Source of the DNA: Arthrobacter sp. KBS0702
GTDB lineage: Bacteria > Actinomycetota > Actinomycetes > Actinomycetales > Micrococcaceae
DNA length: 64,000 nucleotides
NCBI RefSeq assembly: GCF_005937985.2
Contig: NZ_CP042172.1
Coordinates: 682,001 to 746,000 of the forward strand
Direction: 5' to 3'
The number at the start of each line of letters is the position of its first letter. Position 1 is the stretch's first letter. This document shows, one piece after another, positions 1,497 through 56,300 of this stretch. The notes under the pieces were generated by a model, which did no database searches, was not told the origin of the DNA, and saw nothing but the letters and a program-made list of their open reading frames with translations. The position numbers were made by a program, and so were the translations under genes.

Positions 1497-1520
1497 AGCA
1501 ACTGAATATGCCTTTGATCT

Positions 1521-1728
1521 GCGGCGGGAGAGTTCTGCAAGTAGGTACAAGCAGGCGCCGTAGGAGCAAACCCTCCCCAGGAATCTCTCAGGCCCATGTA
1601 CCGCCGCGGCAAGGCAACTCTGGAAAGCAGCAAGCGCGTCTCGTGACGCGCCGTGCTCACCGACGGTGCAAGCGGAGCCCTGCGAAAGCGGCTGCGCGGA
1701 AACTCTCAGGTCCAATACAGAGCGGGGA
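1521..1728 (+). ncRNA. Tandem glycine riboswitch
   Basis: Two aptamers lie in series. The first has the conserved GGGAGAG near 1526, GCCGTAGGAGCAA at 1557-1569 and AATCTCTCAGGC around 1582-1593. The second has CCGACGGTGCAAGC near 1660-1673 and GGAAACTCTCAGG at 1698-1710. This two-aptamer layout directly before gcvP is the classic glycine-sensing leader. In known cases glycine binding raises expression of the cleavage system. No separate terminator hairpin is obvious before the gcvP start, so control may be translational or by leader folding. Boundaries are approximate. Confidence 0.93.
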
Positions 1729-1781
1729 GGAACCCGAATCAATGTGGCGTACCCTGCGCCGCCTTAGTTATGGAGTTCCTT

Positions 1782-32469: not shown

Positions 32470-32604
32470 CTCGCGCGGGGCGGGCATGCCCGGGGCCGGC
32501 CAGGGGTTGTGCACAGGCGAGATAACGAAATTATTACTGCTTGCCTTAATCCCCTATAGTTGAGCACTGGCACTGATACTAAAGCGTTATCTGATCCGAA
32601 GCCG

Positions 32605-32818
32605 AGCTCTGCCAGCGGATCAGTAGGCGAGTCACCTTCTGGCAGAGGCGGGGGAACCACAAGCGGCTGTTGATTCAACAGCCTTGGGGTGAAGTCCGCT
32701 AGCGGCAAGCAAACTCTACGAGGGCCTCCCTGGATGTCCCTGTGTCTGGATGCTTGCATCGGCGGACCGGGTCTTTGATCTCTCTGACCCGAATCCGACA
32801 GCTAACTTCGCAGGCTAT
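32605..32818 (+). ncRNA. c-di-AMP riboswitch (ydaO type) 1
   Basis: Landmarks run in order. CTCTGCCAG (32608) pairs with CTGGCAGAG (32639). GCGGGGGAACC is near 32648, and GCGGCTGTTGATTCAACAGCC is a variable hairpin. Then come TTGGGGTGAAG, a second variable arm, GACCCGAATCCGACAGCTAACTTCGCAGGC up to 32815. This is the ydaO/yuaA c-di-AMP aptamer, which in actinobacteria lies before secreted wall hydrolases and shuts expression when c-di-AMP is high. The M23 gene starts 18 bp after it. A TATAGT -10 box at 32555-32560 is the likely promoter. Confidence 0.93.
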
Positions 32819-32835
32819 CCAGAGAGGAACCGTAC

Positions 32836-33782: not shown

Positions 33783-33952
33783 CTAACTCTGCCACCGCTC
33801 AAGGTCCGTTCGCATGACATCGTCTGGCAGGGGCGGGGGAACCAATTTTGGTCTTCGCAAGAAGACCTTGGGGTTAAGTCGCAAAGCTTCCCAGGAAGCG
33901 GCGCGGCCGGGTGACTCCCATCCGAATCCGACAGCTCACCTCGTAGGCATTG
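33783..33952 (+). ncRNA. c-di-AMP riboswitch (ydaO type) 2
   Basis: The same landmark order as riboswitch 1 is seen. CTCTGCCAC (33787) and CTGGCAGGG (33823) come first, then GCGGGGGAACC (33832-33842), a hairpin GGTCTTC/GAAGACC, TTGGGGTTAAG (33868), and ATCCGAATCCGACAGCTCACCTCGTAGGC ending near 33950. A GAGAGG ribosome-binding tract follows at once and precedes a short ORF at 33968. Boundaries are approximate. Confidence 0.92.
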
Positions 33953-33967
33953 GGAGAGGCTACTTTC

Positions 33968-50535: not shown

Positions 50536-50628
50536 ATGTCTGATCAGCTAGTTGTGCCGCGCATGGCAGCGACAACGGTTTTCGGCGTCCCGGCAAATGT
50601 TCGTCCGCCACAGGTGGTGGCCCAGTGA
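50536..50628 (+). CDS. Small ORF (30 residues) coupled to the STAS gene
   Basis: ATG 50536 follows TTTGGGGA and opens a 30-residue frame (MSDQLVVPRMAATTVFG to PQVVAQ). Its stop overlaps the GTG of the next gene by 4 nt (GTGA). TATTAT near 50443 is a possible -10 box. It is too short to assign and may act as a leader that delivers ribosomes to the STAS gene. The gap 50324-50535 shows nothing else. Confidence 0.45.
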   Translation: MSDQLVVPRMAATTVFGVPANVRPPQVVAQ

Positions 50629-51128
50629 CGGTTGAAGCGCCGGTTGCTCCGGACGCCCCGGACGAGAAAATCCCGGAAGACCCCCGAGCACTTGCGGGAG
50701 CGCCCGCCGCGGCGGCTCAGTCATTGTTGACCGCGGAGCCGACGTTGGCCGCGGAGCCAACCCCGGAGCCGATCATCGGCGTCCGTCAACTCCAAGGCGG
50801 CATCATCGAAGTCGCGTTGCCGCCGAACCGTGAGATCGAGGGCCCCGAAGCACGGGCGGCCGGGGCTGCGGTCCGCACGCTCGCCGACGGCCTGCGCGTG
50901 CCCGTACTGCTGAACATCTCCGGCGTCGTCGGCGTCAGCGCGGAAGCCCGCCAGGTCTATGCTGGTTCGATTGCCGCTTCGGCATTCGCGCTGGTGGGAG
51001 AGAGCCCCGTGGACCGCGTGATCGCGCACTACCTGCTGCGCTCCAGAACCGAAACAATCCCGGCGGAGTTCTTCCTTTCGCGCACGGAAGCCCTTGAGTG
51101 GTTAAGGCCCTATACGAGTGAAAAGTGA
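50625..51128 (+). CDS. STAS/SpoIIAA-like domain protein
   Basis: 167 residues. After a disordered acidic N-terminus (1-48), residues 50-167 show alternating strands and helices. GIIEVALPPNREIEGPEARAAG, VPVLLNISGVVGVSAEARQVYAG and FFLSRTEALEWLRPY resemble SpoIIAA-like STAS domains, with a conserved SxEARxxxAG motif. Such domains usually act by protein-protein contact. GTG 50625 overlaps the small ORF, and the C-terminus overlaps the GGDEF-EAL gene by 11 nt. A partner role for the c-di-GMP enzyme is likely. Confidence 0.75.
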   Translation: MTVEAPVAPDAPDEKIPEDPRALAGAPAAAAQSLLTAEPTLAAEPTPEPIIGVRQLQGGIIEVALPPNREIEGPEARAAGAAVRTLADGLRVPVLLNISGVVGVSAEARQVYAGSIAASAFALVGESPVDRVIAHYLLRSRTETIPAEFFLSRTEALEWLRPYTSEK

Positions 51129-52653
51129 TGTTCCAGACCCCCGTCTCCATACCCTCGTGGAGGGCATTGTCCGGATCGCCAGCGGTGATCTAAGCACCAG
51201 GATTCCCCACTCCGGGGCGCGCGACGACGTCGCGGCGGTGATTGCCGGAATCAACCTGATGGCCGACGATCTGCAGACCATTTACCAGGAGCTCGAGGAG
51301 CGCGTCGAGAGCCGGACCGCCATGCTGCGCCAAGCGCAGGTGGAGCTCGAGCGGATGGCGCTGACGGATCCGTTGACCCAGTTGGCCAACCGGACTGCCC
51401 TGAACTCGGTGCTCAGCCACGCGCTAGCCGAGACATCCCGCGGTGAGCAGCCGCCGGCCCTGCTGATCCTCGACCTCGACTCCTTCAAGGGCATCAACGA
51501 CACGCTGGGCCACAGCGCGGGCGACGATGTCCTGCGTGTGATTGCCCGGCGTCTCCAGGACGCAGTCCGGGCCACGGATACCGTGGCGAGGCTGGGCGGC
51601 GACGAATTCGCCGTCATGCTGCCAAAATCCAACCTGGTGCGTGCCCGTCGGGTCGCCAACAGGATTCTCAAGGCGCTCAGCGAGAGCCTGGACATCGGCG
51701 ACCTCCGGATCACCTGCGGCACGAGCATCGGCGTGCGCGTGGCCGAGCCCGGGCAGTCCGTGGATGACCTGGTGATGGAAGCTGACACGGCCATGTACGC
51801 CGCCAAGGCACAGCCGCACAGCGGGATCAAGATCTTCGAACCGGCGCTGCTCTACGCCCGGCGGTTGCAGAGCCTTATGGTCACCGAGATGCGTGAAGCG
51901 ATCCTCCAGGACCAGCTGACCCTGCACTACCAGCCGGTGGTGGAGCTCGCCACCGGCCGGATCGAGGGCGTCGAGGCGCTGGTGCGCTGGAACCACCCTG
52001 AGCGCGGGCTCCTGATGCCGGACCAGTTCATTCCGCTGGCAGAAGAGACCGGGATGATCGTGGAACTGGGGCACTGGGTCCTGCGCACCGCGGTCCGGCA
52101 GTTGCGCGACTGGCAAGACCGGTTGCCGCTGGATAGCGAATTCTCCGTCCGGGTGAATATCTCCACCACCGAGCTGCAAAACCTCGAACTCATCGAGCAC
52201 GTCCAGGACATCCTCCGCGAGACCGGTGTGGATGCGTCCAACCTGATCATCGAACTGACGGAATCGATGGCCGTCACCGGCGGTGATGTGGACAAGTACT
52301 CGCTCAGCGGGCTGCGCCAGCTCGGCGTGCAGCTTGAGATCGACGACTTTGGCACGGGCTACTCCTCGATCAGCTACCTCCGCCGGCTCCCCGTGAACGT
52401 GGTCAAAATTGACCGGAGTCTGATTGCGGGCCTGGGGACGGACGAGGAGCAGGGCGGCTTTGTCGAGGCCGTGCTGCACCTGATCCACGCCTGCGGGCTC
52501 AAAGCGGTGGCCGAGGGTATTGAGACTGCCGAACAGGCCGAGGAACTGATCCGGTTGGGTTGCGGGAGCGGCCAGGGGTATTACTTTGGACGCCCGGCAC
52601 CGGCGGAAGCCGTGGAGGAAACCCTTTGGCAGTGGAGCGCAGTTTCGGAGTAA
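51118..52653 (+). CDS. HAMP-GGDEF-EAL c-di-GMP enzyme (cytosolic)
   Basis: 511 residues with no membrane segment. A HAMP-like piece (about 10-55, IVRIASGDLSTRIPHSGARDDVAAV) and coiled coil (55-85) lead to the GGDEF domain. It has an intact GGDEF at 160-164 and an RATD inhibitory site (151-154) five residues before it. The EAL domain starts near 255 with EAL at 286-288, plus NIS, ELTES, DDFGTGYSS, KIDRS and EGIET, so both synthase and phosphodiesterase look active. GTG 51118 overlaps the STAS gene by 11 nt. The cytosolic HAMP may take its signal from the STAS partner. Confidence 0.92.
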   Translation: MKSDVPDPRLHTLVEGIVRIASGDLSTRIPHSGARDDVAAVIAGINLMADDLQTIYQELEERVESRTAMLRQAQVELERMALTDPLTQLANRTALNSVLSHALAETSRGEQPPALLILDLDSFKGINDTLGHSAGDDVLRVIARRLQDAVRATDTVARLGGDEFAVMLPKSNLVRARRVANRILKALSESLDIGDLRITCGTSIGVRVAEPGQSVDDLVMEADTAMYAAKAQPHSGIKIFEPALLYARRLQSLMVTEMREAILQDQLTLHYQPVVELATGRIEGVEALVRWNHPERGLLMPDQFIPLAEETGMIVELGHWVLRTAVRQLRDWQDRLPLDSEFSVRVNISTTELQNLELIEHVQDILRETGVDASNLIIELTESMAVTGGDVDKYSLSGLRQLGVQLEIDDFGTGYSSISYLRRLPVNVVKIDRSLIAGLGTDEEQGGFVEAVLHLIHACGLKAVAEGIETAEQAEELIRLGCGSGQGYYFGRPAPAEAVEETLWQWSAVSE

Positions 52654-52724
52654 TGCTCCGACGGAAAGAACGACGGCGGTGCGGCCGGCGTGTTTGCGGG
52701 CGGCGTGTTTGCGGCCGGACATAA

Positions 52725-52766
52725 CAAAGGGCGGGGACTGGACGTAAATCCGGTCCCCGCCCTTTG
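52725..52766. terminator. Bidirectional terminator between the GGDEF-EAL gene and the small peptide gene
   Basis: CAAAGGGCGGGGAC (52725-52738) pairs exactly with 52753-52766 over 14 bp, with the inner GG/CC extending it. It is flanked by converging genes and has A/T-containing ends in both directions. Confidence 0.8.
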
Positions 52767-52781
52767 CGGTTGCTGTCAGTT

Positions 52782-52931
52782 CTACTTGGTGGTGGAGTTC
52801 GGCCACCAGTCCGGCGCTGCCACAACCGTGCTGCCGGAGTTGCCACCGGTAGCCGAGACAGCTGCTGAGGCGGAGAGCCCTGCGGCGGCCAGGGCTCCGG
52901 CGACGAGGAGGGTTGCGATGGTCTTCTTCAT
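52782..52931 (-). CDS. Small secreted peptide precursor (49 residues)
   Basis: Start ATG (complement 52929-52931) has a strong AGGAG seven nt upstream. The product begins MKKTIATLLVAGALAAAG, a textbook signal sequence, with possible cleavage after ASA near residue 23. The remaining about 25 residues are small and polar and end APDWWPNSTTK, with a tandem Trp pair. Codon use matches native genes. It ends 15 bp from a shared terminator and is head-to-head with the TPR gene at 53133, leaving 201 bp between starts. No family is recognised. A secreted signal peptide is a hypothesis; a plain secreted peptide or toxin-like product is the alternative. Confidence 0.8.
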   Translation of the reverse strand: MKKTIATLLVAGALAAAGLSASAAVSATGGNSGSTVVAAPDWWPNSTTK

Positions 52932-53132
52932 GTAGGACTCCTGTTACGTGAGGGACGGATGTGACTCAAGTGGTGCAGATTTAGTATAGGGTCCACCGAC
53001 ACGCCGTCAGGTAACGATTTGTCTCAGCTGCACGAAAACTGTGTTATTTGCGCGTGAATATTGCCAATTCCCCCCGCCGAAATTATGCGTGTGCTGTACG
53101 GATTTACGCCGGTGGCAACGGATAATTGATAC

Positions 53133-54212
53133 ATGCTTGAGAAGATAGCCTCTACGGCTTACGTCGCGGCAGAGCTCAAAGCTCGCAGTCACCGGGACAA
53201 CCACGAGTTCGCCGCGGCGGCTAGCAGTGCGCACGACGCTGCCGCGATTGCTCTGGCCGAAGGCGATCCTGCGGCTGGTTGGGCGATGAAGTACTTCCAG
53301 GCAGAGAATTTGATGGACGCTGGCGACTTTGAAAAGTGCGCCGACTTGGCCCGCGAGCTCATTGATCACCCTCACACCGCGCCGGAGGAGCAAACACAAG
53401 CGCGGGCACACATTTTGCTCTCGAAGGCATGGCAGGGAGCGGGACTTCTAGAGAGTGCCGCGGAAGCCGCTCGTACGGCTGCAGAGCTCACTTCGGATGA
53501 GGCCGATATTGAAATTAATGTGAAGGCGAGGCAAGCATTAATCGCGGCCCTTGCGGATGGCGGCAGGCTCGTCGAGGCTTGGAATGAGAGTCGGGTGCTG
53601 GCCAGCATAATCTCGGAAGACCTGGACGATCAAGTGGCAGGCAAGGCCTATTGGGTCATTGGAAACGTTGCCTTTTTATCCAACCGGGTGGGGGAAGGCC
53701 TTCGCTATCACGAGTTGGCTGCCACGACCTTCTCGCCCTCGAGAAACCTCGATGTCTGGGCCAAATTCAACAAGGCATCTGCCGCAATGCGCTTAACGGC
53801 TGATGTGGCCGACACCGACACGCTGCGATGCATAGAACGCGCGGAGTTGGCGACTGACGTCATCGGGGGGACCGCCAATGACTATCTCCTCCTCCGGCTT
53901 AATCGAGCCCACTGGAACCTTCTGGCGGGAGACCCTGAAGGGGCGGTAGCTCTTCTTCAAGACCTCTGCGGCACGGAGGATCAGCTTGCGCCTCAAAGAG
54001 CAGGCGAGGCGTGCTTCCTCCTCGGACGCGCATATTTGGCCCTTGGGAAAAATTCCCTGGCTCGCGACTGCCTCCTGCGGGCCGCCAGTAACTTTGATGC
54101 ATCTGGCGCTCCCCACCGCGGCCAGCAAGCCCGCGACTTCCTCAGGGCCGAACTAGGCCGGGCATCCTTCTGGTCCTGGCTCGTCCACGTCACGGGCTTC
54201 GACCGCAACTGA
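53133..54212 (+). CDS. TPR-repeat protein without a DNA-binding domain
   Basis: 359 residues made of helical pairs. Repeats are visible at about 25-55 (AAAASSAHDAAAIALAEGDPAAGWAM), 55-75 (YFQAENLMDAGDFEKCADLARELI), 90-120 (ILLSKAWQGAGLLESAAEAARTAAEL), 165-190, 255-285 (NRAHWNLLAGDPEGAVALLQDLC) and 292-320 (CFLLGRAYLALGKNSLARDCLLRAASNFDASG). No HTH, membrane or enzyme motif is seen, and a TGA two codons upstream rules out a longer N-terminus. GATAAT at 53121-53126 lies 6 bp before the ATG, suggesting a leaderless message. AT-rich codons set it apart from its neighbours, a sign of recent acquisition. Confidence 0.82.
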   Translation: MLEKIASTAYVAAELKARSHRDNHEFAAAASSAHDAAAIALAEGDPAAGWAMKYFQAENLMDAGDFEKCADLARELIDHPHTAPEEQTQARAHILLSKAWQGAGLLESAAEAARTAAELTSDEADIEINVKARQALIAALADGGRLVEAWNESRVLASIISEDLDDQVAGKAYWVIGNVAFLSNRVGEGLRYHELAATTFSPSRNLDVWAKFNKASAAMRLTADVADTDTLRCIERAELATDVIGGTANDYLLLRLNRAHWNLLAGDPEGAVALLQDLCGTEDQLAPQRAGEACFLLGRAYLALGKNSLARDCLLRAASNFDASGAPHRGQQARDFLRAELGRASFWSWLVHVTGFDRN

Positions 54213-54226
54213 CACCGTTTCCTGAG

Positions 54227-54333
54227 CATGCCCTCCGCCCGCGTCGTGCAGTGGACATATAGGGCATGTGCTCATTCGCCGGGGGCAGGAATGGGCATGT
54301 CCATCGCGGCTAGGAGTGGGCATGTCCATCGTG
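54227..54333. repeat. CATG-centred repeat array A
   Basis: GAGCATGCCC, GGGCATGTGCTCA, TGGGCATGTCCATCG and again TGGGCATGTCCATCG have CATG cores at 54227, 54265, 54296 and 54321. The sequence family is the same as array B. It lies between the TPR gene and the converging membrane-protein gene. Confidence 0.7.
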
Positions 54334-54374
54334 CCGCGAGTCTCGGGGCTCCGTGTCCGCAGAATCCCGATCCG

Positions 54375-55028
54375 CTAGGCCCGGGCGGAACCCGCAGCGT
54401 CGGCCCGCCCCGAAGCAGACTTCCGGCCTAGGAACACAGCCGCGCCGCCGACCACGAGGCTCAGGATCAGGAGGATCCAGCCGGCCAGCGTGAGCCCGGA
54501 CGCCAGGGCGACCTGGCCGCCGTCGGGCGTCTCCGCGGACATCATGGCGTCGATCGCCGCGTTCCCCCACAGCCGCACCACGGCGAACAGCAGCGGCACC
54601 GCCCACAGGGCCCAGCGGAGTCCCTTCCGGGCCACATTCGTCCCGATCAGCAGCAACCAGGTGAAACCGAAGATCAGCGGGAACAGCGTCCCGGCAGTCT
54701 TGTGCACGTAGTTGAGCTGTCCGCGGGCGTCCCCGTCCATGGCCGTGCGCAGCTGCTCCACAAAGCCCTGGTCGAAGCCGCCGAGCAGCGAATCGGGCAT
54801 CGGGAGCCCGCCGCTGAGTTGCGTGAGCTGGTTCAGGGTCAGCAGGTGGACGTACCAGAACAGGAACAGGCTCGCCACGACGCCCGCGATCAGGATCAGG
54901 TTGCTGTTGCCCTGTGCCTTCTGCGGGGACCGCGTGGTGCTGGGATTAATCACCGCGGGCAGGTGGTGCTGGGGGACGGCCGCGCTCGCGCCGTGCTTCT
55001 TGATCCGCTGGGCGGGTGTCTTGGCCAT
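54375..55028 (-). CDS. Four-helix membrane protein of unknown function
   Basis: 217 residues. The N-terminus is basic and polar (MAKTPAQRIKKHGAS). Four hydrophobic segments follow: LILIAGVVASLFLFWYVHLL, TLFPLIFGFTWLLLIG, ALWAVPLLFAVVRLWG and ASGLTLAGWILLILSLVVGGAAVFL. A loop of about 45 residues separates the first two. No family is recognised. It is divergent from the IMPase-family gene with 108 bp between starts. Confidence 0.75.
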   Translation of the reverse strand: MAKTPAQRIKKHGASAAVPQHHLPAVINPSTTRSPQKAQGNSNLILIAGVVASLFLFWYVHLLTLNQLTQLSGGLPMPDSLLGGFDQGFVEQLRTAMDGDARGQLNYVHKTAGTLFPLIFGFTWLLLIGTNVARKGLRWALWAVPLLFAVVRLWGNAAIDAMMSAETPDGGQVALASGLTLAGWILLILSLVVGGAAVFLGRKSASGRADAAGSARA

Positions 55029-56030: not shown

Positions 56031-56300
56031 ATGGGCATGCTCATTTCCCGGGCCCGGCAGCGATGGGCATGCTCGCTCCTCGCCGCAGCGGATGGACATG
56101 CCCGTTCCCCGAGCCTGGCACGGCTGGACATGCTCACGCCTTGCAGGACCGGACGGGCATGCTCAATCCTTGCCGCGGCCGATGAACATGGCCATTCCCC
56201 AGGAGCAGTACGGATGGACATGCTCATCCGTCAGCCCTAAGCGTGGACACAATGGCAATATGTCCACGCCTGCGCCCAGAGGATGGGCATGTCCGTCGGG
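56031..56300. repeat. CATG-centred repeat array B, period about 30 bp
   Basis: Cores of the form TGG(G/A)CATG(C/T)(T/C)C(A/G) have CATG at 56036, 56068, 56097, 56129, 56158, 56187, 56219 and 56288. Spacings are 32, 29, 32, 29, 29, 32 and then 69 bp. In the long step, TGGACAC (56244) and TGTCCAC (56261) form a split palindrome. Spacers are similar but not identical, often TTCCCCG-N-GCC. The array fills the gap before pcrA. Confidence 0.8.

Follow-up and report, generated by a model that had tools for sequence, protein, structure and literature searches.

A 64,000-nucleotide stretch of Arthrobacter sp. KBS0702 (contig NZ_CP042172.1, positions 682,001 to 746,000 of the forward strand; hereafter the window) carries a small secreted prepeptide gene head to head with a gene for a tetratricopeptide repeat (TPR) protein that lacks a helix-turn-helix (HTH) domain. 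The comparative evidence makes it quite likely that this pair is one branch of an undescribed peptide signaling family of Actinobacteria resembling the RRNPP (Rap, Rgg, NprR, PlcR, PrgX) systems. At the level of the genes, the comparisons define a conserved family of predicted peptide–receptor pairs that is under selection. Its HTH-less branch probably steers a neighboring cyclic di-GMP (c-di-GMP) enzyme by contact. A first-pass annotation of the region had proposed a Rap/Phr-like signaling pair in an actinobacterium, and this proposal is supported by conserved co-occurrence, by variation of the peptide core, and by a paralogous pair in the same genome whose receptor bears an HTH.

The prepeptide gene and its divergent partner

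The features of the pair are as follows.

52782..52931, minus strand: prepeptide gene, 49 aa, with a Sec-type signal sequence and a short polar C terminus (from the list of open reading frames [ORFs] and the sequence)
52797..52814, minus strand: predicted signal core PDWWPN, residues 40-45, matching the stretch kept between the repeat copies of relatives (-3 to +2 about the Trp of Trp-Pro)
52938..52942, minus strand: prepeptide Shine-Dalgarno AGGAG, 6 nt 5' of the ATG; CAGGAG-type sites precede the starts of close orthologues
53121..53126, plus strand: GATAAT, a -10-like box 6 nt 5' of the TPR ATG; ATAAT is kept in relatives
53133..54212, plus strand: HTH-less TPR protein, 359 aa, predicted peptide receptor (ORF list, sub-threshold Pfam TPR matches, fold model)

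The prepeptide, MKKTIATLLVAGALAAAGLSASAAVSATGGNSGSTVVAAPDWWPNSTTK (49 codons counted from the ATG), has a positive n-region, a hydrophobic h-region, AxA-type sites, and a polar tail, much as the annotation had described it. Here and in relatives, signal sequences were called by a home-made rule based on charge and hydrophobicity, not by a trained predictor. We infer that the limits of the mature peptide lie around PDWWPN. In many relatives the core forms the extreme C terminus (..IGWWPN*, ..NNWPY*), which fits a mature C-terminal peptide, and six residues fall within the size range of known RRNPP pheromones.

The TPR gene is divergent from the prepeptide gene across a 201-bp gap. A Pfam scan of its product found no HTH and no Rap N-terminal family, with all TPR matches below threshold, and an in-frame TGA two codons 5' of the ATG means that no HTH is concealed upstream in that frame. 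The AlphaFold2 model (mean predicted local distance difference test score 91.3, predicted template modeling score 0.84) has 18 helices in about nine pairs and no strands; the pairs run from residue 8 on without a separate N-terminal bundle. Invariant residues fall in the helices at 166-182 and 206-222. The divergent 359-residue TPR protein without an HTH is in these respects as first annotated, and the ORF as listed has no signal sequence when judged by eye. A fold search with the model returned TPR superhelices, among them known RRNPP receptors that ranked no higher than general TPR proteins, so this search was not used as evidence of membership. A sequence scan of the PDB gave no match to PlcR, NprR, PrgX, Rgg, or AimR-type receptors. 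Eight SBP_bac_5 proteins are encoded in the KBS0702 genome, making peptide import possible.

Alignment of 38 distinct close intergenic regions shows the ATAAT box to be conserved a few bases before the TPR ATG, which supports the leaderless start that the annotation had thought probable. The annotation had also taken the AT-rich codons of the TPR gene as a sign of transfer. A dip in GC content is indeed present (about 0.58 across most of the gene), but a recent horizontal transfer is not supported, given the same neighbors in close relatives and a moderate GC deficit that extends across the subclade (mean 0.622 for the TPR gene vs 0.652 for the locus in 44 close HTH-less loci, some genomes being counted twice). 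As for an origin in mobile elements, neither 72,556 plasmid records nor 50,697 phage records contained a relative at E 1e-5.

Besides the window gene, the KBS0702 genome has one clear relative of the TPR protein, at G000:C1:3095305 with 41% identity, and an additional weak match (E 0.04). At G000:C1:3095098 the clear paralogue has an N-terminal HTH in Pfam (HTH_31, 45.1 bits with a cut-off of 27; HTH_3, 42.6 bits with a cut-off of 23), and the ORF divergent from it encodes three copies of VGNWPDPM behind a signal sequence. The genome thus contains, in addition to the HTH-less window pair, an HTH-TPR pair that has the complete RRNPP layout, and the genuine HTH of the paralogue strengthens the RRNPP comparison. 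The region between the HTH-type genes contains a block that is conserved across 37 same-genus sequences and includes TTGACA-like and TAAAAT-like boxes as well as a ACATTGTAAAATGT palindrome, a candidate autoregulatory operator. A genome-wide search for regulon targets at two or fewer mismatches found a single ACATTGTAAAATGT site, at the paralogue locus, and hence no further targets; the site is therefore absent from the window promoter. Defense-system models gave nothing beyond matches to the HTH part of the paralogue.

An ABC-transporter-like match lies 5' of the HTH-TPR gene in 37/37 same-genus HTH-type loci (L063 and L081-L116, with L marking individual loci) at about 1.7-4.5 kb, mostly 1.7-2.7 kb. 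It shares 36-42% identity with the ABC gene of the window, and it could be an exporter or a target.

Conservation of the pair and selection on its core

Among 59 genomes searched, TPR relatives gave 55 matches in 37, that is, in KBS0702 itself and all 36 other same-genus genomes sampled, and none in 22 genomes of other families. At each of the 55 same-genus loci (37 HTH-TPR, 18 HTH-less), a small divergent ORF encodes a signal-like sequence and a Trp-Pro (WP) core. The co-occurrence that the annotation had set beforehand as a check is found head to head in 55/55 same-genus loci and in 177/206 distinct loci overall. These 55 prepeptides carry one to six copies of the core each. Beside HTH-TPR genes the core is GNWPD, except for GIWPD (L113) and GNWPY (L104), and beside HTH-less TPR genes it is mostly xWWP[N/D/H]. 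The variable C termini beside matching receptors that the annotation had suggested looking for are present, as orthologous receptors are accompanied by DWWPN, EYWPN, DYWPN, NWWPN, GWWPD, and others. Both pairs are present in 18 genomes, and their cores differ in every one.

A six-frame search with a profile of the paralogue prepeptide gave one strong match in each of the 37 same-genus genomes, always adjoining the HTH-TPR gene. Two weak matches (E about 5e-4) lay at other places, and the 22 other-family genomes gave no match. The window peptide gave 16 matches to E 0.007, of which 14 adjoin an HTH-less TPR gene; the remaining two are at L048, which lacks a WP core, and at L043. The latter is an orphan prepeptide gene at 1501-1647 (..SVGWWPH) that looks genuine; no TPR gene was recognized among the ORFs of its 3.1-kb locus, and the HTH-less receptor of that genome lies on another contig.

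A TPR relative at E 1e-8 or better occurs in 144/295 genomes of the family and in 17/32 genera; relatives named among the matches listed include Arthrobacter, Pseudarthrobacter, and Paenarthrobacter. The loci outside the genus were hand-chosen from the matches listed (60 regions and others fetched) and those of the class were the best-scoring matches, so that shares outside the genus are not those of random samples. Where loci shared an identical receptor start, only one was counted, and two loci too short upstream were set aside. On this basis a prepeptide is recognized at 114/118 HTH-less and 63/88 HTH-bearing loci, making up the 177/206 above, a count that excludes five wrong ORF picks (four ORFs in the RsmA frame and one in L183_1). 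Prepeptides are recognized in 14/17 family genera having a TPR relative, with loci from 16 of the 17 covered; one genus has only doubtful ORFs (L150, L151) and one has none (L160). Other genera carry cores such as NNWPY, GLWPY, GNWPH, GDWPH (in as many as eight copies), GNWPDA (six), and GNWPDR (five). A second family of the order has HTH-TPR proteins about 27-30% identical, with three VGGSWPT copies (L298) or a single ..SDTWPA (L299), and at two further distant loci, L300 and L301, no prepeptide was recognized.

At the peptide-less loci, a search with alternative starts, positions, and repeats recovered L153-L155 (TTG start, 6-8 copies of GDWPH type) and the prepeptide of L199 (GTG start, HTH-less locus). 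After that search, the HTH-type loci without a recognized peptide were L143-L146 (extra copies in one genus), L149, L152, L160, L163-L172, L194, L196, L198, L201, L300, and L301. The HTH-less loci without a prepeptide in the count are L175, L183_1, L234, and L276, although L183_1 does show a two-copy prepeptide.

Several of these loci have features of their own. At L150 and L151, short ORFs without a signal sequence lie 5' of the HTH-TPR gene and end in ..GGIGDWPHAA and ..GGIGDWPHAD; they are perhaps a leaderless form of the signal. L183, L185, L186, and L276, from other genera, have two tandem TPR receptor genes with prepeptide genes. L234 (Arthrobacter sp. MA-N2) is close to the window locus and has about 1.5 kb extra between the GGDEF-EAL and TPR genes and no recognizable prepeptide. 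L274, in a record titled Vibrio cholerae strain 35D, is an Arthrobacter-like stretch with the same gene set, probably a contamination or a mislabeled record.

Chance does not account well for these numbers. A divergent small ORF with signal and WP was found at 7/468 other genes of the fetched loci, compared with 174/206 distinct TPR loci under the same filter, and four of the seven positives are second TPR genes, which brings the background to 3/464. The looser filter used for the class had a background of 15/482 genes (family loci, second TPR genes kept), 3 of them with WP or CC, while a control within the class regions gave 0 positives among 11 genes.

The repeat copies within a gene show what is kept. 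Among 164 distinct prepeptides, 95 are multi-copy, and in 91/95 of these all copies agree over five residues; L154 (TTG start) has six GDWPH and two GNWPH. Codons compared between copies of the same gene from -3 to +2 about the Trp differ synonymously 491 times and non-synonymously 20 times, against 260 synonymous and 1182 non-synonymous differences in the upstream flank (-9 to -4), the codon pairs between copies not being mutually independent. The DNA of the copies has thus drifted while six residues were kept, so that the copies are not simply young duplications, and the codon pattern indicates that selection acts on the core.

In the class, an HTH-TPR profile matches at E 1e-10 or better in 114/394 genomes, many of them to the HTH part only. 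Of the 27 best loci, which include three repeats of, or from, groups already sampled, a divergent secreted small ORF is present at 18, with WP in 11 of these ORFs; WP repeats include DIEWP (two copies), DIGWP (two), and DISWP (three). In 20 larger class regions (partly the same loci) there are 21 HTH genes, 12 with a divergent secreted ORF, of which 8/12 end in CC. In Streptomyces (genus g132, 100% identical protein) 3/10 distinct loci have the pair, and the pairing is therefore not general there. Extension of the pair across the class is likely, if less firm than the family-wide result. The odds are about even for a broader reading in which Actinobacteria as a class use a large, undescribed peptide-pheromone system of XRE-HTH-TPR receptors with divergent, often multi-copy secreted precursors, the window branch being an HTH-less, peptide-gated c-di-GMP regulator. 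The precursor types would then be GNWPD in Arthrobacter, DISWP/DIGWP/DIEWP repeats in some Streptomyces, and C-terminal ..CC in Jiangella.

Divergent secreted ORFs of 40-45 aa that end in Cys-Cys lie beside HTH-TPR regulators at L333, L337-L341, L343, and L347, several of them Jiangella-type. In the CC-type genome of L340, the query is 79-80% identical to Jiangella proteins. A modified or disulfide-bearing signal is possible for such ORFs.

Apparent loss of the HTH and the c-di-GMP neighbor

Three features flank the pair on the prepeptide side.

50625..51128, plus strand: DUF7793 (SpoIIAA-like) protein (Pfam), whose gene overlaps the start of the GGDEF-EAL gene
51118..52653, plus strand: HAMP-GGDEF-EAL protein, putative output enzyme (Pfam; neighborhood of relatives)
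52725..52767, no strand assigned: strong hairpin separating the convergent GGDEF-EAL and prepeptide genes (z -6.15, with -39 kcal/mol for the folded stretch)

The hairpin is a probable bidirectional terminator of these two genes; a simple terminator scan of 52600-54400, which needs a T run, reported none, this hairpin included.

A tree of 76 chosen receptors places all 41 that lack the HTH on the same side of a single branch (support 98/94), which takes no more than one label change. The HTH-less side is also marked by its neighborhood. Where the flank was adequate, a GGDEF-EAL gene lies near 89/94 HTH-less loci vs 0/78 HTH-bearing ones, and among short-flank loci, counted apart, near 22/26 vs 0/10. 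The gene is on the upstream side at 35 of the 89 loci and on the downstream side at the other 54, and in 86/89 it is less than 1 kb from the TPR gene. The window lineage has the enzyme gene upstream, in tail-to-tail orientation to the peptide gene, whereas other lineages have it downstream of the receptor on the same strand. In Paenarthrobacter-type loci it starts within a few bases of the receptor stop, and in several other lineages a DUF7793-type ORF stands between the two. Three of four DUF7793 proteins are also SpoIIAA-like in Pfam, one just above the cut-off. All 15 enzymes inspected retain their GGDEF and E[A/V]L motifs, and KBS0702 has only seven GGDEF genes. The other protein beside the window pair is a membrane protein without a Pfam match, and no recognizable modification enzymes are present.

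A route for the signal can be proposed. Export and cleavage of the prepeptide would release a peptide of six to eight residues around PDWWPN, which an oligopeptide permease would import and the TPR protein would bind in the groove of its superhelix. With less certainty, the window receptor may derive from an ancestor in which the HTH was lost a single time, and its neighborhood suggests that it contacts the adjacent DUF7793 and HAMP-GGDEF-EAL proteins. Cell density (or self/non-self) could thereby set c-di-GMP turnover.

Some findings weigh against this account. The fold of the window TPR protein is not diagnostic. The annotation had held that either gene being common without the other, together with a lack of binding, would speak against a pair: The peptide is rarely seen without a TPR gene (the one orphan at L043), but TPR genes do occur without a recognizable peptide at 25/88 HTH-bearing loci. 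In addition, a GGDEF-EAL gene 58-61% identical is present in 16/19 same-genus genomes that have no HTH-less receptor. The receptor has the enzyme nearby in 18/18 same-genus HTH-less loci, and since the receptor is always near the enzyme while the enzyme also occurs alone, an accessory regulator is the simplest reading. The same 16/19 genomes favor a different version, unlikely but deserving some weight, in which the peptide is the TPR ligand and the receptor acts on something other than GGDEF-EAL, for example the HTH-bearing paralogue, the neighborhood being merely inherited. It also draws on the tail-to-tail arrangement in the window lineage, where the enzyme is not in a receptor operon, and on the branching of HTH-less receptors from among HTH-bearing ones. 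Inheritance of this kind fits poorly with the retention of the same enzyme in two arrangements on the HTH-less side and its absence from HTH-bearing loci, and with the near contact of receptor stop and enzyme start in Paenarthrobacter-type loci.

Readings without a peptide ligand fare less well than RRNPP-like signaling. The small protein could be a secreted effector, bacteriocin-like or acting on the cell envelope, with the TPR protein as a chaperone, immunity factor, or regulator that does not bind re-imported peptide. The secretion signal, the small size, the HTH-type TPR genes that lack a recognizable peptide, and the ABC-transporter-like match at every same-genus HTH-type locus would suit such an effector. 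It is nevertheless improbable, given that the copies share a stretch of just some six residues and diverge in their spacers, the pattern of a receptor ligand, that two cores per genome accompany two receptors, and that the neighbors are GGDEF-EAL, DUF7793, and a Pfam-less membrane protein and not recognizable modification enzymes. Divergent gene pairs often share regulatory DNA, and the two genes might on that ground be neighbors by chance or by a common promoter region only, with the TPR protein as an unrelated scaffold, an alternative raised by the annotation itself. The unbroken genus-wide pairing, the profile search, the occurrence of prepeptides in most TPR-bearing genera and in a second family with receptors only distantly identical, and the background of 3/464 leave this with very little probability.

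If RRNPP-like signaling is the correct reading, a common soil genus gains a linear-peptide language, with the pair in 37/37 genomes and likely kin in Streptomyces and Jiangella, and this language is readily testable with synthetic hexapeptides. The HTH-less branch is a candidate direct switch from peptide to c-di-GMP and would make a second messenger respond directly to peptide quorum sensing. That the HTH was apparently lost just once points to a way in which a transcription-factor receptor may become an enzyme regulator.

Relation to known systems and other features of the window

Rap–Phr systems share with the window pair an HTH-less TPR protein adjoining a small exported prepeptide. Rap proteins act by protein contact and not on DNA, and a window receptor acting by contact would be analogous to them. 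An N-terminal three-helix bundle before the TPRs is a defining Rap feature, however, and the window receptor has no separate bundle of this kind in its model and no Rap N-terminal family in Pfam. The order of rap and phr is usually co-directional; the window pair is divergent, belongs to a different phylum than Bacillus, and has many relatives with tandem signal copies. Its neighbor is a GGDEF-EAL enzyme and not a phosphorelay. The HTH-bearing RRNPP systems (PlcR–PapR, NprR–NprX, PrgX–iCF10, Rgg–SHP, AimR–AimP) share the layout of the paralogous KBS0702 pair, an HTH-TPR receptor with a small prepeptide. They differ from the window pair in that its receptor lacks the HTH, and in the Trp-Pro signal core, often in 2-6 repeats per gene. 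The window pair does have what marks the proposed actinobacterial family of XRE-TPR proteins and WP peptides, namely a divergently encoded, secreted prepeptide whose x-x-W-P-x core is repeated or C-terminal. Precursors of yeast alpha-factor-type pheromones also hold several identical signal copies per secreted precursor; the receptor and processing are different, and no sequence relation is claimed.

In the excerpts available of the RRNPP_detector survey (PMC10075063), candidates are TPR proteins of 250-500 aa adjoining a secreted propeptide of 10-100 aa, and the window pair shares this arrangement of TPR protein and small secreted propeptide. The survey, from 2023, covers complete genomes of Firmicutes and viruses according to the same excerpts, which describe actinobacterial signals as typically small molecules. 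Imported-peptide signaling through TPR receptors is treated there, and in the portions at hand of a 2026 review, as a Firmicutes trait. The available part of a 2016 review of actinobacterial quorum sensing lists butyrolactones and cyclic or modified peptides, with LuxR-type homologues in Arthrobacter. The open-license full-text literature yielded nothing joining Arthrobacter and RRNPP, nothing on the core strings in this sense, and nothing on repeated Phr copies, although prior work elsewhere is possible. Among the matches listed from the same literature there was nothing on TPR peptide receptors of Actinobacteria and no apparent link from RRNPP to c-di-GMP or GGDEF, also in the two papers that mention all three terms. 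The actinobacterial peptide–TPR pair is probably undescribed and probably forms a bacterial communication system.

Elsewhere in the window, tandem glycine riboswitch aptamers lie at 1515-1730 (plus strand), and two c-di-AMP (ydaO/yuaA) riboswitch matches lie about 1 kb apart at 32590-32831 and 33805-33963 (plus strand). A repeat with the word GGGCATGTCCAT occurs at 54293-54329 and 56092-56296, with 5 matches at one or no mismatch vs 0.41 expected.
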